Source of the DNA: Ferrimonas marina
Lineage (GTDB): Bacteria; Pseudomonadota; Gammaproteobacteria; Enterobacterales; Shewanellaceae
NCBI RefSeq assembly: GCF_900129905.1
Contig: NZ_FQXG01000001.1
Coordinates: 248,001 to 312,000, forward strand
Reading direction: 5' to 3'
DNA: 64,000 nucleotides
Made by a program: the position numbers and the translations under genes. A model generated the notes under the pieces. It had not been told where the DNA came from. It saw only the letters and a program-made list of their open reading frames with translations, and searched no databases. Positions 6,984 through 14,909 of the stretch are shown here, one piece after another (position 1 is the stretch's first letter; each line of letters opens with the position of its first letter).

Positions 6984-7083
6984 ATCAATCACCAAAATCG
7001 AAAGGAATGTGCAGAATTATGCGGTTTAATTTCGCAATGGTGCAAGTAATCTTGGGTTGTCGATTCAATCAAGGAGAACCCTC

Positions 7084-7704
7084 ATGACCAGCTTGCTCAT
7101 CATCAACGCCAGCCCCAACCCTACTGACAGCGCCAGCCGCCAACTGGCACAGCACTTTGAACAGCAGTGGCGCGACCGTCACCCCGGCGGCAAGGTGGTC
7201 CATCGTGATCTGGCCAACACCCCGCTGCCGCACCTGGATCAGGCCACCATCGCCGCCTTCTACACCCCGGCTGAGGCTCGCTCGGAGCAACAGCAGCAGC
7301 AACTGGCGCTGTCCGACCAGCTGGTGGCGGAACTGCGCCAGGCGGATCAGGTGGTGATTGCCGCACCGATGCACAACTTCTCCATCCCCAGCAGCCTCAA
7401 GGCCTGGATCGACCAGATCTGTCGCGTTGGTGAAACCTTCCAGTACGGTGCCAACGGTCCGGAAGGGCTGCTGAGTGGACGTCAGGCCACCTTGCTGCTT
7501 ACCCGCGGTGGCGACTACTCCAATCCCGCCATGGCGGCACTGAATCATCAGGACTCGGTACTGGCGACGGCAATGGGTTTCGTCGGTATCGAGGTGGTGG
7601 CCAGTATCGCTGCCGAGGGCACGGCAAAGGGGCCAGAAGGCATGGCGTTGGCCAAGCAGCAGATCAGCGCGCTGTTTCCCCAGGCTGAGCCGGCACTGGC
7701 GTAA
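7084..7704 (+). CDS. azoR: FMN-dependent NADH-azoreductase
   Basis: A 206-residue flavodoxin-fold protein. The N-terminal phosphate-binding segment SLLIINASPNPTDSASRQL binds FMN. The central APMHNFSIPSSLKAWIDQICRVGETFQY segment is diagnostic for AzoR, which reduces quinones and azo compounds with NADH in the cytoplasm. Start chosen at ATG 7084, preceded by AAGGAG at good spacing; an in-frame extension to 7057 lacks support. It is divergent from the LysR gene, the common regulator/target arrangement. Its 3' end overlaps the convergent gene by 41 bp. Confidence 0.93.
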   Translation: MTSLLIINASPNPTDSASRQLAQHFEQQWRDRHPGGKVVHRDLANTPLPHLDQATIAAFYTPAEARSEQQQQQLALSDQLVAELRQADQVVIAAPMHNFSIPSSLKAWIDQICRVGETFQYGANGPEGLLSGRQATLLLTRGGDYSNPAMAALNHQDSVLATAMGFVGIEVVASIAAEGTAKGPEGMALAKQQISALFPQAEPALA

Positions 7705-9073
7705 GCCAGTCCAGTAGCAGATCGCCGCTGAGCTGGTCCTCGACCCACTGTTGGGCCAGGTAGCGGTGGTAGATAGGCAGCAGCAACTGGCCGCCGTGCA
7801 GCAGGATGCCGCTGTCGCTTTGCCAGGACAGGATGTCGGGGCGCGGCCGGTCATAGTAGTGGCGGTAGAGGGCATCCTGGCCTTGGATCAGCGCCTGGCC
7901 GGATTGGCTGGGGTAGCGCCAAAGCTGCAGCGCCAGGCGAGCTCGCAACAATTCCGAGGCGGGGTAGCGCGGCTGCTTATCCAGCGACTGGCCAAGCAGC
8001 TGTTGCTGCAGTAACGGCTGGCGGGCCCACTCCTGACCCAGGGCCCTGGCCTGCTGCAGCGACGCTGCGCCCTGCTCGATGGTCTGGCCCTGGGCGCCGA
8101 CCAGGGCCTGGGTTACCAGCCCCATCCATTGCAGCCAGTGGCGCTGGCGCCAGCTGGACTGCCGATAGGTCAGGGTAGACTGGTTGGGGGTATGGCCGAT
8201 CCAGTGGCGCTGGGCAATGCGCAGTCGACTGTCTGGCCCGGCTTGTAACCGAAGCTCGCCCAGGTAGCGCTGTCCGCGCCACAGTTGCCAACTTTGCTCA
8301 TCCAACGGCTTCAGGGTCATTTCCAGTTGCGCCGCCTGCCAATGCAAACTGTCTGATGCCACGCTGGCTGGCTCGATGGCCAGTGGTGGCGACAGTGCAG
8401 GCTGCCAGGGCAGGCTGTCATCGTCGGTTGTCAGGTTGGCCAGGAACTGATCAGCTGGCTCGGGCTCCTGCCAGGGCAGGCTTGACAGCTGTGATGCTAA
8501 GGCATGGTGATGGCCCTGGCGCTGAGCCTGCTCGTGGCTGAGCTGCAGCCACAACTGGACTGGCGCTCCCTCCAGCGATCGTCCTCGATTCTGATGATGT
8601 TGCCACACCGCCTGACGACAGCCTGGGTGCTCGGCCTGGCGCAAGTAGCCCTGTACCGACGGACGGTTCAGGCTCAACACCAAAGGCGGCGTGGCATCCA
8701 AGCCATCCAGACAGCGAGCATCAGTGAGGGTGAGTTGACCGCCGCTGTCGCTCAGCTGGTGTTCCAGCTCGGCGCGCAGGGCCAGCCAGCGGGGATCGGT
8801 GAGATCGGTACCGGTTTGTTGCTGCAAACGATGGCGCAGCAGCAGGGCACACTGGCCCAGCTCGGCGCTGTCGCCCTCGGCGGCGGCCAGTTGAAGTTGG
8901 TCCTGCAGCAGGCGCAGCTTGAGCAGGGATTGGCGGTTGGGTTGGGACGGGATTGCCTCCAGCTGGTGCAGGCAGTATTGCAGCAGCTTGGCACTGCTGG
9001 GGGCCGAAAGCAGCAACGCCCCAGCAAAAACCAGGGCGTTGAACAGGGACAGACGGCGGTTAGGCACCGCCAC
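7664..9073 (-). CDS. Uncharacterised exported protein, last gene of the cmoA operon
   Basis: About 469 residues, not recognised. Residues 1-30 resemble a signal peptide (basic NRR, then a hydrophobic stretch ending APSSA). The rest is soluble and rich in Gln, Leu and Trp, with helical character and no catalytic motif I can name; two cysteine pairs in the first 160 residues could form disulfides. Start chosen at GTG 9073, seven bases after AAGGAG that lies inside the ATP-grasp gene, giving a 14-bp overlap and implying translational coupling. It may therefore be an exported partner of the protease/transglutaminase/ATP-grasp set. GTG 9067 is an alternative start. Confidence 0.7.
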   Translation of the reverse strand: MAVPNRRLSLFNALVFAGALLLSAPSSAKLLQYCLHQLEAIPSQPNRQSLLKLRLLQDQLQLAAAEGDSAELGQCALLLRHRLQQQTGTDLTDPRWLALRAELEHQLSDSGGQLTLTDARCLDGLDATPPLVLSLNRPSVQGYLRQAEHPGCRQAVWQHHQNRGRSLEGAPVQLWLQLSHEQAQRQGHHHALASQLSSLPWQEPEPADQFLANLTTDDDSLPWQPALSPPLAIEPASVASDSLHWQAAQLEMTLKPLDEQSWQLWRGQRYLGELRLQAGPDSRLRIAQRHWIGHTPNQSTLTYRQSSWRQRHWLQWMGLVTQALVGAQGQTIEQGAASLQQARALGQEWARQPLLQQQLLGQSLDKQPRYPASELLRARLALQLWRYPSQSGQALIQGQDALYRHYYDRPRPDILSWQSDSGILLHGGQLLLPIYHRYLAQQWVEDQLSGDLLLDWLTPVPAQPGETAR

Positions 9074-10010
9074 CAAACCACTCCTTGGCCATGGCGATGC
9101 GCTCCTCCACCGGGTATTGCTGCTCGCCAAGGGACTCAACCTTACGCAGCCGGGGCAGCAGCCCCTGGTTGTTGGCGATCTGGATCGCCAGACCGGGGCG
9201 GGCGTTGAGCTCCAGCAGCAGCGGGCCGCGCTCGCTGTCCAAAACCATGTCGGTGCCGAGGTAGCCCAGGCCGGACATCTCGTAGCAGCCAGAGGCCAGG
9301 GTCAGCAGGCGGTCCCAATGGGGCACCTGCACCTCGTGCAGGTTGCGCCCGGTGTCCGGGTGTTCGCTGACCGGCTCATCGTACTGTACTGCGCGAATGG
9401 CCTGGCCGGTGGCGATATCGACGCCGATCCCTACCGCCCCCTGGTGCAGGTTGGCCTTGCCGTCGGAGGCGTGGGTCGAGCAGCGCAGCATCCCCATCAC
9501 CGGGAAGCCTTTGAAGATGATAAGCCGGATGTCCGGTACACCCTCGTAGGAGATCCCCTCAAACACCGGGTCGAAGCGGATCAGCGACTCGATCACCGCC
9601 ACATCGTTCTTACCGCCCAGACTGAACAGGCCTGCGAGGATGTTGGAGCAGTGACGCTCCATCTCGATAGCACTGACCTCGTCGCCGGAGGGCTTGAAGT
9701 AGCGACCGTCCTCAACCTTGGTGATCACCAGGATCCCCTTGCCACCAGAGCCCTGGGCAGGCTTGATGCAGAAGCCGGTCTGACCGGCCAGGCGCTGGCT
9801 CAGCTCGCTGATCTCATGTTGCTCGGAGATCACCGAGATGAGATCCGGGGTGGCGATCTCGGACTTAAGCGCCAACTGCTTGGTGATCAGCTTGTCGTCC
9901 ACCTGCTTGTAGAGGCTACGGGGGTTATAACGCCCGATGTAGGAGATGTTCCGTTGGTTCATCCCCATGATGCCGCGGTTACGGAGTCGACGTGGATCGC
10001 AAAACAGCAT
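9060..10010 (-). CDS. RimK-related ATP-grasp alpha-L-glutamate ligase-like protein
   Basis: About 316 residues. ATP-grasp features include GFCIKPAQGSGGKGILVI (nucleotide-binding Lys and glycine loop, about 90-107) and a C-terminal metal-binding segment LLELNARPGLAIQIAN. It resembles the RimK-related ligases annotated as alpha-L-glutamate ligase-like, which join amino acids through acyl-phosphate intermediates. Its start overlaps the stop of the upstream transglutaminase-like gene as TGATG (ATG 10010; a GTG at 10013 is also in frame). Comparative genomics has linked this ligase, inactive transglutaminase/TM protein and retropepsin-like protein as a set. The acceptor substrate is unknown. Confidence 0.87.
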   Translation of the reverse strand: MLFCDPRRLRNRGIMGMNQRNISYIGRYNPRSLYKQVDDKLITKQLALKSEIATPDLISVISEQHEISELSQRLAGQTGFCIKPAQGSGGKGILVITKVEDGRYFKPSGDEVSAIEMERHCSNILAGLFSLGGKNDVAVIESLIRFDPVFEGISYEGVPDIRLIIFKGFPVMGMLRCSTHASDGKANLHQGAVGIGVDIATGQAIRAVQYDEPVSEHPDTGRNLHEVQVPHWDRLLTLASGCYEMSGLGYLGTDMVLDSERGPLLLELNARPGLAIQIANNQGLLPRLRKVESLGEQQYPVEERIAMAKEWFGGGA

Positions 10011-11509
10011 CACTTATCCTCAGCCAGGGGGCGGAAGCGGCGCAGCTCGAGCAGACGGTAGCCGGTGTACTGGCCCATCAGCAGGATGCAGGCAACGATG
10101 ATCAGGTGGATACCCAGGAAGTTGAAGGCCCAGTGGCGCACCAGGTCGTTGTCCATCGCCAGGTAGGTGATGACCGCCACCAGCAGCGAACCACCGCCCT
10201 GGATCATCACCTCTTTGGGACCTTCCTCCTCCCACAGGATCGACATCCGCTCGATGGTCCAGGCCAGGATGATCATCGGGAAGAAGGTGATGGTCAGACC
10301 CTCTGTCAGGCCCAGGTTAAAGGCCAGCAGGGTAAAGCCGGCGATGATCCCCAACACCAAGATCACCACGGCACTGATCCTGGAGATCAGCAACAGGTTG
10401 AGATTGGACAGGTAGGAGCGGATCACCAAACCACAGGCGACGATCAGCAGGAAGCCAATCAGGCCGGTGAGCAATTTGGTCTGGATGAAGGCCAGGGCGA
10501 TCAGCACCGGCATAAAGGTCCCTGAGGTCTTGAGGCCAATCAGCACTCGCAGGAATACCACCACCAGTACACCGATGGGGATCAGGAACAGGCCACGCAG
10601 CAGGCTTTGCTCTTCCAGTGGCAGGTTGTACAGCGACAGGCCTCGACCGTGGCCGGCCATCATGTCGATGGCGGTGGCCAGGGCAGGGCGGCTGTCTTCA
10701 ATCATGGAGAAGGTGACGTTGGAGTTGCTGCCGCCGCTCAGGTCCAGTACCGAGTTACCGTGACGCTGCCACAGCAGCACGTTGTCATCGCGCCCTTCGG
10801 CCCCGGTACGAGGGTTGAACAGGTAGCTCTTATCGCCCTCCTGTACCTCTACCCAGGGCTGCAGCTGCTGACGGCGACGACCGTCTTCCAGGTTCAGGGC
10901 GTAAACCAGCTTGGAGGGCACCTTAGCGCTGTGCAGCAAGCGGTTGAGCAGCGGGCCAGACTCGTAACGGCCCAGCAGCAGGGCCACATTCTGTTGCTGA
11001 TCCGGGTTGGCCACCATCTGGGCCAGCTGACGGGCAAAGGAGCGGTTGTTGGCGCTCTGCTCCCAGGCCTTCTCGATCACGGCAGTGGCGGCGGTATCCA
11101 GCCCCTCATCCCAGACCACGTTCGGCACGGTCATGGTTTCGCTGCGGTCATTGAGCTTGTAGTTGGCGTTGGGCACCAGGTTGGCGGTGTAGTACAGCTC
11201 CTGCCGGCCCTGGGCATCGCGGGTGGTCCAGGTGGCGCGACGGGCGCCGGCCTCTTCGGTCATCGCCAGGCCGTAACCCGGGGACGCCGCAGACTCGGAC
11301 AACAGAGTAAAGGCAGGATCCGAGGGCAGGGCCAGGGAGGCCTCCACCGCGCCGGAGGCGGTGTAGGTGACCCGGGCCTCAACGGTCCAGGTGGTCTGGA
11401 CGCTGCCGGGGAACAGCGGAATGCCGTCGGTATGATGGCGATAGATGTTGTAGCTCAGGCCACTGGCGAAGAGCAGGAAAATCAACAGGTAAAAGGGTTT
11501 TTTAGACAC
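10010..11509 (-). CDS. Inactive transglutaminase-like domain fused to a multi-TM region
   Basis: A 499-residue membrane protein. An N-terminal TM segment (about 6-24) anchors a periplasmic beta-rich region and a transglutaminase-like domain (about 150-265). The usual Cys-containing helix start appears to be replaced near SAKVPSKLVYALNL, in keeping with its description as inactive. The C-terminal half (about 305-490) contains about seven hydrophobic helices. It is probably a membrane scaffold or sensor working with the adjacent ATP-grasp ligase and protease-like lipoprotein. It lies 10 bp after the lipoprotein gene and shares TGATG with the ligase gene. Confidence 0.87.
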   Translation of the reverse strand: MSKKPFYLLIFLLFASGLSYNIYRHHTDGIPLFPGSVQTTWTVEARVTYTASGAVEASLALPSDPAFTLLSESAASPGYGLAMTEEAGARRATWTTRDAQGRQELYYTANLVPNANYKLNDRSETMTVPNVVWDEGLDTAATAVIEKAWEQSANNRSFARQLAQMVANPDQQQNVALLLGRYESGPLLNRLLHSAKVPSKLVYALNLEDGRRRQQLQPWVEVQEGDKSYLFNPRTGAEGRDDNVLLWQRHGNSVLDLSGGSNSNVTFSMIEDSRPALATAIDMMAGHGRGLSLYNLPLEEQSLLRGLFLIPIGVLVVVFLRVLIGLKTSGTFMPVLIALAFIQTKLLTGLIGFLLIVACGLVIRSYLSNLNLLLISRISAVVILVLGIIAGFTLLAFNLGLTEGLTITFFPMIILAWTIERMSILWEEEGPKEVMIQGGGSLLVAVITYLAMDNDLVRHWAFNFLGIHLIIVACILLMGQYTGYRLLELRRFRPLAEDK

Positions 11510-11519
11510 GTTGCTTCCC

Positions 11520-12326
11520 TTATTTGTCGCCGGACAGGATGTACTGGCCGCTTACGTCCACGACGGCGATGTCTTTGAAGAACTTGCGACCCAGCAGCAG
11601 GGGGTACTCCATGTGGCTGCGGTCGGTCAGGTTCAGCTCGGTCTCAGCGACAAAGTCGCCGATCTTCAGTCGCGCCATGATCACCGGGCGTCGCTCGGAC
11701 TCGGCCGCAGAAGCGCGCTTGATCAGAACAAAGCGGGCTACCTTGGCTTCGATGGTGGAGTTGGCCGGACCGGCCTGCTTAGCCTGTTCGGTCTGTTCTG
11801 CGGCGGCTTCCGCTTCACCTTCGCCATTCTCGCTGACCTCAACCGGGGCATCGGCGCCCGGCAGTGGCACGTCGAAGCGAACCCATTGATCGCCATCGCG
11901 CTCAAACAGACGGATGTTGGCAGCAGAGATGGAGGAGCTGGCGGCGCCGGTATCAACCCGGGCTTCAAACGCCTCGCCCACCTCCTGGACATAGACCCGC
12001 TCCACTTCACCCAGCACCAGCTTATCGCTGAGCGGGTCCGCGGTGACCTCAGGGCAGACCGGCACCGGGGTGGTGGTGTTGCTGTCCACCTCCGCCAGGG
12101 TGGCGTTGATGGAACGAAGTTCGGTGATCACCACCTGCTGCTGTTCCAACTGTTCCTGGTAGACCTCTTGCTGTTGGTCACAACGCTGGGCCATCAGGGT
12201 TTCCATCTTCGCCAGCTGAGCGTCCATTGCGTTATTGAGCTCATCCTGTGTGGCCGCCGGCGGGGTGGAAACACAGCCACTGAGCAGTGCGGCAGTGGTC
12301 AAGGCGAGCAGGGTTCGGCGATTCAT
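11520..12326 (-). CDS. Lipoprotein retropepsin-like aspartyl protease (ATP-dependent zinc protease family)
   Basis: A 268-residue lipoprotein: the signal ends in lipobox LSGC with Cys18. A predicted coiled coil (about 28-80, Gln/Glu rich) follows, then a retropepsin-like domain with the catalytic-type motif [11 protein letters not shown] (Asp125) and a C-terminal [18 protein letters not shown] segment. Databases usually call this family ATP-dependent zinc protease (RimB-like), although the fold signature is aspartyl protease. An Ala/Glu-rich low-complexity insert (about 164-185) interrupts the domain. It shares ATGA with the end of cmoB. The substrate may be the product of the adjacent ligase (inference). 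Confidence 0.87.
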
Positions 12327-13318
12327 CTGTGTTGGGTCCTTTGTTGTGATTCGGCTTTTTCTGCGATGACAATGGCCCGTTTGGGGGCCGGGTAGCCTTC
12401 AACGGTTTTGGTCTCGTCGTTGGGGTCAAGATAGTCTTTCAACGACTCATTGCCCATCCATTCGGTACTGCGCTGCTCCGCCACCGTGGTGTCGCCCTCG
12501 TCGACCACACGGACATTAATGAAGCCGCATTTTCTCAGCCAGAGCATCAAGGCTCTACTGGAAGGAATGTACCAGACATTGTTCATTTTCCCATAACGAG
12601 ATTCTGGCACAAGTACCTGATTTTCATCTCCTTCAATTACCAGCGTCTCCAAAACTAATTCGCCACCGGGCTTGAGTTGCTCCTGCAACTGGTATAGGTG
12701 ATCGATGGGCGAGCGGCGGTGATAGAGCACCCCCATGGAGAACACGGTATCAAAGGCGTGCAGTGGTGGCAGTTGTTGGATCCCCAGCGGCAGCAGGTGC
12801 AGGTCCTGGGGATCTCCGGCCAGCTTGCGTACCGCTTCGAACTGGGCCAGGAACAGATCCGAGGGGTCGACCCCGATCACCAGCTCAGCGCCTTCCCCCA
12901 GCATCCGCCACATGTGGTAGCCGCTGCCGCAGCCCACATCCAGTACGGTGCGGTGCTTGAGCGGGCTGATGTGGGGCAGCAGCCGGTCCCATTTCCAGTC
13001 GCTGCGCCACTCGGTGTCGATGTGGATGCCATAGAGATCGAACGGCCCCTTGCGCCAGGGCTGCAGACACTTGAGCAGGTTGTGCAGCTTTTTCTGTTCG
13101 CCGGGGGAGAGGGCCTCGGCGTCGCCGACGGTGACGCTGTGTTTCAGCTCCAGGGTCTCCGGCTGGCGCTGGGGCAGCTTGGCCAGCACCTTTTCCCACT
13201 TGGGGAAGTCGCCGTTCTTATGGAAGCGGCTCCAGTGAGCCAGCTGGGCCGGTGCGCTTTCCAGCCAGTGGTTTAGCCGGGTGCCGGCAATGCGTTTGTA
13301 GAAGGCGCTGAAATCCAT
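12323..13318 (-). CDS. cmoB: tRNA U34 carboxymethyltransferase
   Basis: A 331-residue cytoplasmic enzyme that transfers a carboxymethyl group from carboxy-SAM to 5-hydroxyuridine at tRNA wobble position 34. The Rossmann motif [15 protein letters not shown] and the specific N-terminal [19 protein letters not shown] match CmoB; length is near the usual 323. Start at ATG 13318 because it overlaps the cmoA stop as TGATG and begins the conserved N-terminus; an extension to 13354 would run into cmoA. It is followed without a gap by the lipoprotein protease gene (ATGA). Confidence 0.95.
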
Positions 13319-14049
13319 CACTTGATCGCTATCATCGAGGCAAAGTTGTAACACTGGAACCAGAGCGTTGATTCCTCAAAGCCGGCCCGGGCAAAGCGGG
13401 CCTGGTGCTCCTGCCAGCTGTCGGGGCGCATCACGTTCTCCAGCGCGGTGCGCTTCTGGCTGATCTCCAGTTCGGAGTAGCCGTTGGCCCGTTTGAAATC
13501 CAGGTGCAGATCATCCAGTAGCTTGTGCAGACGGGGCTGGGGGAACACCAGCTTCTCCGATACCACCAGGATGCCGCCGGGCAGCATGCCCTGGTAGATC
13601 TTACGGATCAGCCGGTCGCGGTCGTCCGGGTTGAGGAACTGCAGGGTAAAGTTGAGCACCACCATGGAGGCGCGCTCGATCGCCACATCGCGGATGTCGG
13701 CGCATACCAGGTCAACCTCCACCGGGCTGACAAAGGCATCCAGATGCTCCTTAGCTCGCTTGATCATCGCCTCGGAGTTGTCGATGGCCACCAGGCGGAC
13801 CCCCTGGGCCGAGACTTTTCGCCGCATTGCCAAACTTGCTGCCCCCAGAGAGCACCCAAGGTCGTAGACATTGCTATTCTCTGAAACAAAGCGTTGCGCT
13901 ATCTCGGACAGGGTATGCAGGATCTCGCCGTAACCGGGCACCGAGCGGGAGATCATATCGGGGAAGACCGATGCGACCTTATCATCGAAACGAAAGTCCG
14001 CCACGCTGGATTGTGGCGTTGAAAAAATGCGGTCTTGCTTTGCGCTCAT
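13318..14049 (-). CDS. cmoA: Carboxy-S-adenosyl-L-methionine synthase
   Basis: A 243-residue enzyme making carboxy-SAM from SAM and prephenate, the donor used by CmoB. SAM-binding motif [15 protein letters not shown], then [11 protein letters not shown], and the C-terminal [15 protein letters not shown]. Start at ATG 14049 (MSAKQDRIF), preceded by CAGGAA; the length agrees with the E. coli enzyme, whereas the longer ORF start adds an unsupported 19 residues. It is the first gene of a six-gene minus-strand operon, with its promoter probably in the gap shared with the divergent GGDEF gene. Confidence 0.95.
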
Positions 14050-14216
14050 AACCGGTTCCTGATTGACAAGGCGGCGATAGTAACGCCGCGGCCCAGCCAG
14101 CAGCAAGATGGGCCGTCAAAAAGCGGGTTTCATTGACTAATTTTGTACCGAATTTGGCCCAGTGTCAGGAATTTATCTTTAACAGCAGCCAGTTTAGTAA
14201 CGGAGTCGCCCCCAAC

Positions 14217-14909
14217 ATGCCGTGTCATCTTCTCCCCTGCGCCCTCGGCCTTGTCGCCCTGCAACCGGTCTCGGTCTGGGCCGCCGGTGCCATCGCCTTC
14301 TCTCCGGTGTCGCTGATCGCCATGGTCAGCTCAGTGCTGGTGTTGACCCTGCTGGTGGTGTGGATGTGGCGACGGGAGCGCTGGCGGCGCAAGGCGCTGG
14401 AGCAGCAGCTGGGCCAGCCCGGCGGCTACGATGCCGCCACCGGTTTGCCCGGGCGCAACCTGTTTGATGACCGCTTCGCCCACGCCATCGCCCGTCACGG
14501 TCGCAACCAGACCCACCTGGGGTTGATGGTGATCCAGGTGGACAACTACCACCCACTGTGTCGACGGCTGGGGGCCCAGACCATCAACCAGCAACTGCGT
14601 GAGCTAGTAAGCCACTGGCGCCAGTGCATCCGCCGCTCCGACACCCTGGCTCGCACCGGCCCGGACCAGTTCACCGTGTTGCTGGATCCGGTGATGGACA
14701 GCCGCGGCGCTGGCATGGTGGCCAAGGCACTGGTGTCAGCCACCAACCGCCACAACGCCACCCGGGGGGAGGGCGAGCCGGTGTGCATCAATATCGGTGT
14801 CGCGCTCTATCCACAACACGGCGCCGAGGGCATCAGTTTGCTCAAACGGGCCCACGAAGTGGTGCAACGCAGCGGCCGCCGGGGCACCAGTGGCTACAAA
14901 GTGGCCTGA
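14217..14909 (+). CDS. Membrane protein with degenerate GGDEF domain
   Basis: About 230 residues. A signal-like hydrophobic N-terminus (1-25) and a TM segment (about 33-53) precede a basic linker and a C-terminal domain with GGDEF-family layout: DAATGLPGRNLFDDRF (about 75-90), a strand with LGLMVIQVDNY, RRSDTLARTGPDQFTVLL and a final INIGVALYP. The signature reads TGPDQF instead of GG(D/E)EF, so diguanylate cyclase activity is unlikely. It may bind nucleotides or act as a signalling partner. Start ATG 14217 is preferred to an upstream TTG at 14133, though the ribosome site is weak. Confidence 0.72.
   Translation: MPCHLLPCALGLVALQPVSVWAAGAIAFSPVSLIAMVSSVLVLTLLVVWMWRRERWRRKALEQQLGQPGGYDAATGLPGRNLFDDRFAHAIARHGRNQTHLGLMVIQVDNYHPLCRRLGAQTINQQLRELVSHWRQCIRRSDTLARTGPDQFTVLLDPVMDSRGAGMVAKALVSATNRHNATRGEGEPVCINIGVALYPQHGAEGISLLKRAHEVVQRSGRRGTSGYKVA

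Follow-up and report, generated by a model that had tools for sequence, protein, structure and literature searches.

The rloABC operon was characterised in Pseudomonas aeruginosa in 2025 and tied to osmotic and envelope stress; it encodes a secreted retropepsin (RloA), an inactive transglutaminase with seven transmembrane (7TM) helices (RloB) and an ATP-grasp protein (RloC) (PMC12239564). A P. aeruginosa strain without its three RloA proteases does not grow under hypo-osmotic stress and is rescued by deletion of rloB or rloC, and RloA in vitro cuts glutamate runs of 8 or 10 residues but not of 6 or fewer (PMC12239564). The authors of that study expect RloA to act on glutamate added post-translationally (PMC12239564). 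Vesicle output of Shewanella vesiculosa HM13 rises when the strain loses an inactive transglutaminase with seven transmembrane helices, which we take to be RloB by this description (PMC12096838). Retropepsin and ATP-grasp ligase are also paired in the RimB/RimK ribosome-modification system, which is cytosolic and lacks RloB (PMC12239564). Here we analyse a stretch of 64,000 nucleotides from Ferrimonas marina (contig NZ_FQXG01000001.1, positions 248,001 to 312,000; hereafter the window), which contains an rlo operon located behind cmoAB and followed by a sixth gene. The locus probably unites an rlo envelope-stress operon with an apparently exported and putatively peptide-binding pseudopeptidase derived from the rlo system; its placement after cmoAB is shared with loci of Shewanella, Ferrimonas and Vibrio.

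The rlo operon behind cmoAB

The six genes lie on the minus strand of the window in the order cmoA, cmoB, rloA, rloB, rloC and sixth gene:

13318..14049, minus strand: cmoA, carboxy-S-adenosylmethionine (carboxy-SAM) synthase (TIGR00740, 330 bits, cut-off 193)
12323..13318, minus strand: cmoB, tRNA U34 modification enzyme (TIGR00452, 493 bits, cut-off 275)
11520..12326, minus strand: rloA-type lipoprotein retropepsin (PF05618, E 9.6e-35; alignment with PDB 9g58/9g59)
10010..11509, minus strand: rloB-type inactive transglutaminase and 7TM protein (PF14400 and PF14402, both above cut-off)
9060..10013, minus strand: rloC-type ATP-grasp protein, alpha-L-glutamate ligase-like (TIGR02291, 472 bits, cut-off 314; PF14397 also above cut-off)
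7664..9073, minus strand: sixth gene, encoding a pseudopeptidase of M3 fold that looks exported (identified by profile, tree and predicted fold)
8108..8122, minus strand: GLVTQ codons of the sixth gene, residues 318-322, aligned with HExxH of active relatives and inside model helix 310-326

Genes three to five are an rloABC operon, with the three kinds of product found in P. aeruginosa encoded in the same order on one strand. The preliminary description, made from the letters of the DNA, had called protease, transglutaminase and ATP-grasp protein a recurrent set, and this set is indeed the one that the P. aeruginosa work links to stress of osmotic and envelope kind (PMC12239564). The window RloA has a lipobox (LLSGC) and a DTG motif, both read directly from the sequence, and in the alignment with PDB 9g58 the Arg of RRPVI lies 66 and the Arg of TDRS 89 positions beyond the Asp. 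These are the offsets of R114 and R137 from D48 in P. aeruginosa RloA, from which we infer that 9g58 is that protein; equivalents of all three residues are present, and the catalytic Asp and two Arg, mutants of which failed to rescue in P. aeruginosa (PMC12239564), are identical in the window protein. The window RloA differs in having an Arg at the position of K46, a lipobox and a long N-terminal stretch. The best matches of the window RloA and RloB are the NCBIfam models of those names, yet the scores stay under the narrow cut-offs of these models (RloB, NF052267, full length, 311 against 900; RloA3, 101 against 210; RloA2, 96 against 250; RloA, 73 against 280). The ligase sets the operon apart from RimB/RimK, scoring 35 bits against a RimK-family cut-off of 143. 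Residues 161-186 of the window RloA (11769-11846) form an acidic, Ala/Glu-rich insert between two conserved halves, which is shorter in some congeners and absent from Shewanella and Vibrio RloA in a 20-row alignment; it is a possible self-substrate or plug. Elsewhere a second RloA-like match accompanies rlo, between cmoB and rloB at L080:5356-7180 and behind rloC at L107:7468-7974.

The surroundings of rlo were compared in two sets of loci, which share some contigs so that their counts are not additive. The named loci are the best 80 of 228 gathered around RloC homologues; as they were found via RloC, all 80 carry rlo, with rloA-rloB-rloC present in each. In 73 of them, Vibrio, Photobacterium and Shewanella included, cmoB lies upstream of rloA on the same strand, joined by cmoA in 69. 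In the wider class, PF14402 occurs in 79 of 369 genomes, and among the loci of 60 of these 79, rloA and rloC stand beside rloB in 56. Same-strand cmoB was found within 3.5 kb in none of these 60 class loci, six of which offer less than 4.5 kb upstream; one (L217) has cmoAB on the opposite strand. Set against each other, 73 of 80 and 0 of 60 mark the cmoAB link as typical of one part of the class. It is thus regional and nothing special to the window, and the prospect, allowed for at the outset, that it might be confined to this strain is ruled out. The window operon differs from that of P. aeruginosa in its place behind cmoAB and in the gene after rloC, and the main text of PMC12239564 contains none of the terms cmoB, oligopeptidase and 'M3 family'. 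What is new relative to the known rlo operon is the sixth gene.

The sixth protein and the M3 oligopeptidases

The sixth product was initially described as having no recognisable domain. Profile, tree and predicted fold together give good support to its structural identity as a zinc-less relative of the M3 oligopeptidases, and the structural and evolutionary part of our explanation is very probably right. L086, a homologue from a different family within the order, is an ordinary M3 peptidase by its PF01432 match (E 1.7e-44) and its HESGH motif. In a scan of 12 genomes with PF01432, half of them carrying the sixth gene, that gene scored above the cut-off in G033, G024 and G025 and below it in G003 and G023, and was missed in the genome of the window; the G033 copy, from Shewanella (L077), reached 33.4 bits against a cut-off of 27, and the L065 homologue gave no match. 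A profile built on 30 homologues plus the window protein matched 14 of 177,635 PDB sequences up to E=1. The best 11 of these, seven at 3e-6 to 1e-5 and four at 0.02-0.03, are M3 enzymes, as is the thirteenth, the K-26 dipeptidyl carboxypeptidase; two of the 14 are unrelated. The assignment of some of the named enzymes to family M3 is presumed. Profile-profile comparison with M3, leaving out L086, gave 96.2% (E 2.5e-9, 133 columns; reversed control 0.1%), and 89.5% (2e-6) with the Ferrimonas members alone.

A model of the sixth protein predicted from 31 sequences (predicted local distance difference test score (pLDDT) 81.1, predicted template-modelling score (pTM) 0.78) agrees with these matches, all 12 Foldseek hits at E<=0.001 being M3 enzymes. 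VIA-align placed E. coli Dcp first (Z 19.6, root-mean-square deviation (rmsd) 5.2, 443 of 469 residues), followed by ACE-type enzymes at Z 16-17. An unknown fold is ruled out by these matches, and profile and fold, the latter from the predicted model, are those of an M3 homologue, presumably a non-catalytic one. The sixth protein thus resembles E. coli Dcp, thimet oligopeptidase, neurolysin and oligopeptidase A in predicted fold and sequence profile, but differs from them in its signal-peptide-like N-terminus, in the lack of HExxH..E and in length, with 469 residues against 680 in the Dcp entry. Judged from that N-terminus, the protein is apparently exported, as had been proposed.

The H, E, H and E columns of HExxH..E read G, L, Q and Q in the window protein, and HExxH is lacking in 89 of 90 distinct open reading frames of the protein family (six of the 90 are shorter than 400 amino acids), the sole exception being L086. 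With no zinc site and no PF01432 match of its own (three homologues are above the cut-off), the window protein is not a regular M3 peptidase, and we infer from its sequence a lack of peptidase activity. A less eroded form, with QQLGA or QQLGL, occurs in a second family of the order (f20: L296, L299, L301). An M3 protein with intact HExxH lies directly behind rloC in L086, L293 and L294, all of one genus, and in L295 from another family, and the operon order in all four is rloA-rloB-rloC-M3-DUF3541. Overall, 10 of 295 order genomes have an M3 like that of L086 at E<=1e-20, five behind rloC (in L301 as a pseudo form) and five with no rlo gene in the fetched stretch. A full-length M3 frame that scores like ordinary M3 enzymes also lies upstream of rloA, on the same strand, in one class locus (L253:10306-12399); with the five order loci, this makes M3 beside rlo an occasional but repeated arrangement. 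In L296 and L299 the pseudo-M3 stands without an rlo gene in the fetched stretch, as in rlo-less Shewanella.

A 36-row tree separates the rlo-linked active M3s, together with every pseudo form, from the remaining M3s (98/96). The pseudo forms cluster as one (98/98; 99% of 200 bootstraps), the pseudo label changing a single time, and this grouping fits a zinc site lost once. The four zinc/catalytic columns are changed in 21 of 21 pseudo members and intact in 15 of 15 active ones. It is improbable that the sixth protein is still an enzyme with its active site re-arranged in the M3 cavity. Purifying selection on the gene would suit such an enzyme, as would two residues of the C-terminal part, where M3 enzymes hold the peptide, namely Gly 427, conserved throughout, and Tyr 431, conserved almost throughout; however, the four columns have no shared replacement, their residues varying among members.

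Occurrence of the sixth gene and of DUF3541

Of the 146 genomes of the Shewanella-Ferrimonas family, that of the window included, 142 match a family profile of the sixth gene at E<1e-40; those without a match are G001, G009, G010 and G517. For 13 chosen pairs the ratio of non-synonymous to synonymous substitution rates (dN/dS) was 0.11-0.38, compared with 0.01-0.13 for rloA, rloB, rloC and cmoB, where one cmoB value is undefined and the stop-to-stop reading frames include some non-coding or overlapping sequence. Profile matches and dN/dS together indicate that the gene is real. The window protein as a single query matched 21 of 60 relatives at E<=1e-3, homologues being 16-38% identical to it, and our literature searches found no paper on it.

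Among the named loci, the sixth gene is present in 37 of 37 from Shewanella, 3 of 5 from Ferrimonas and none of the 38 others. It lies directly behind rloC in 40 of the 80, and its product looks exported, as would suit a substrate glutamylated by RloC and trimmed by RloA, the first of the two roles floated in the preliminary description. Against this role, the gene was not found beside rlo in the 38 named loci from other genera or in the 60 class loci (four with less than 2.5 kb behind rloB), and all but one of the 27 family genomes that lack RloB have kept it. Among 29 family sequences the longest encoded acidic run is 3 and the longest glutamate run 2, short of the runs of 8 or 10 that RloA cuts (PMC12239564), which rules out cleavage at an encoded glutamate run. 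An encoded run would be unnecessary if, as the authors of the P. aeruginosa study expect, RloA acts on post-translational glutamate (PMC12239564); all told, we give the substrate role only a slim chance.

The second role was that of a partner of the set; read as an obligate partner, it finds no support in the same genomes and is rejected. RloB is found in 119 of the 146 family genomes, and the sixth gene in 116 of these 119 and in 26 of the 27 without RloB (Fisher p 0.56; our Fisher p values treat related genomes as independent). The anticipated co-occurrence holds in part: the sixth gene adjoins rloC in every inspected family locus that has both, but is retained where the set is gone. All 26 RloB-less loci were inspected, and in 24 the sixth gene is directly behind cmoB; in the other two (genus g3) rloC lies between cmoB and the sixth gene, once with rloA. 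The rlo-less members fall in different parts of the gene tree (L090/L091 as against L267 and L274), although the intervening branches are weakly supported, and this scatter makes more than one loss of rlo likely. Should the L086 order be ancestral, the RloB-less genomes would have kept the sixth gene while losing its neighbours on either side.

The position behind cmoB in 24 of 26 RloB-less loci could also mean that the sixth gene has a functional tie to cmoAB, or that it is a passenger left there by history. We regard this as unlikely: an exported protein would hardly act on tRNA, the active relative in L295 comes after rloC although the 3.9 kb fetched upstream contain no cmoB, and the coding constraint argues against a mere passenger.

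The distribution of DUF3541 (PF12060) is different, as this family is encoded somewhere in 106 of the 119 genomes with RloB and in none of the 27 without (lists compared by hand). In 33 of 37 named Shewanella loci it comes immediately after the sixth gene, and it also follows that gene at L065:11111-12337; Shewanella sp. ANA-3 (L095) has DUF3541 together with rlo and the sixth gene. DUF3541 does not occur in the window; the own genome and some others carry it elsewhere, in the former at G000:C6:523550-524530 (L302), where the surrounding 19 kb that were fetched contain no rlo gene. No PDB sequence relative was found at E up to 10, no paper in our literature search and, with a model of pLDDT 88, no Foldseek match at E<=0.001. 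The model reached Z up to 12.3 with toroid-like helical proteins (terpene cyclases, GH88/GH105, LanC-like), a level that can reflect a common arrangement, and the fold is predicted to be all-helical and toroid-like.

A proposed envelope role and the gene junctions

We propose that RloC in the cytosol would add or polymerise glutamate, that RloB in the inner membrane may hand over or control the RloC product, and that RloA in the periplasm would cut long glutamate runs, the joint product of RloC and RloB being harmful unless so trimmed. A secreted M3-type zinc oligopeptidase, of the kind still found behind rloC in other genomes of the order, may originally have degraded the short peptides released by RloA. 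The sixth protein would descend from such an enzyme, having lost the four catalytic/zinc residues on the branch leading to the window while keeping the predicted fold. The dead protein might then bind these or other periplasmic peptides uncut and act as a buffer, a scavenger or a regulatory adaptor; such a role would have remained useful without RloABC. Because we hold the structural and evolutionary part to be highly probable and peptide binding, suggested by sequence, to be a tentative assignment, the explanation as a whole earns moderate confidence.

Several observations weigh against this explanation. The sixth gene is absent from 3 of 13 genomes of the same genus, and it evolves several times faster than its neighbours, so that a conserved ligand is not obvious. 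No Pfam or NCBIfam model matches the window protein up to E=1; on the M3 model this protein scores 19.5 bits, the best of 5,600 shuffled decoys reaching 12.3, a value that 12 of 28 family members do not attain, and the sequence match to M3 is confined mainly to one segment. The Foldseek superpositions have template-modelling scores of 0.49-0.58 and rmsd of 9.7-11.8. As for the tree, it is midpoint-rooted, its branches are long and its composition is skewed, and only a short stem (0.029) connects the active linked M3s with the pseudo forms.

M3 oligopeptidases, intact or dead by lineage, and DUF3541 are two further candidate components of the rlo system, and their presence in the same operon suggests that this system ends in short periplasmic peptides. 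The pseudopeptidase, retained in nearly all RloB-less genomes, illustrates well how a dead enzyme can have its own role. It is conceivable, though we would not yet lean towards it, that the pseudo-M3 family has a single origin in an active oligopeptidase linked to rlo and later became free of that system while keeping a peptide-binding role in the envelope, and that, with the RloB-tracking DUF3541, it points to an rloABC-M3-DUF3541 pathway that would make, trim and clear a Glu-rich periplasmic peptide.

At the level of the DNA, the tight packing of six same-strand genes first described is borne out by coordinates and junctions. The cmoA/cmoB junction is TGATG at 13318 and that of cmoB and rloA is ATGA (12323-12326, a 4 bp overlap). 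The rloA stop at 11520 and the rloB GTG at 11509 leave a gap of 10 bp, rloB and rloC meet at GTGATG (10010-10013), with rloC starting at either GTG 10013 or ATG 10010, and the start of the sixth gene overlaps rloC by 14 bp (9060-9073). Promoter-like and terminator-like matches in 7000-14500 showed no excess over shuffles, and tRNA and Rfam scans of the window gave no matches. At its other end, the sixth gene overlaps a convergent flavodoxin-fold gene (7087-7704, plus strand) tail to tail by 41 bp (7664-7704).

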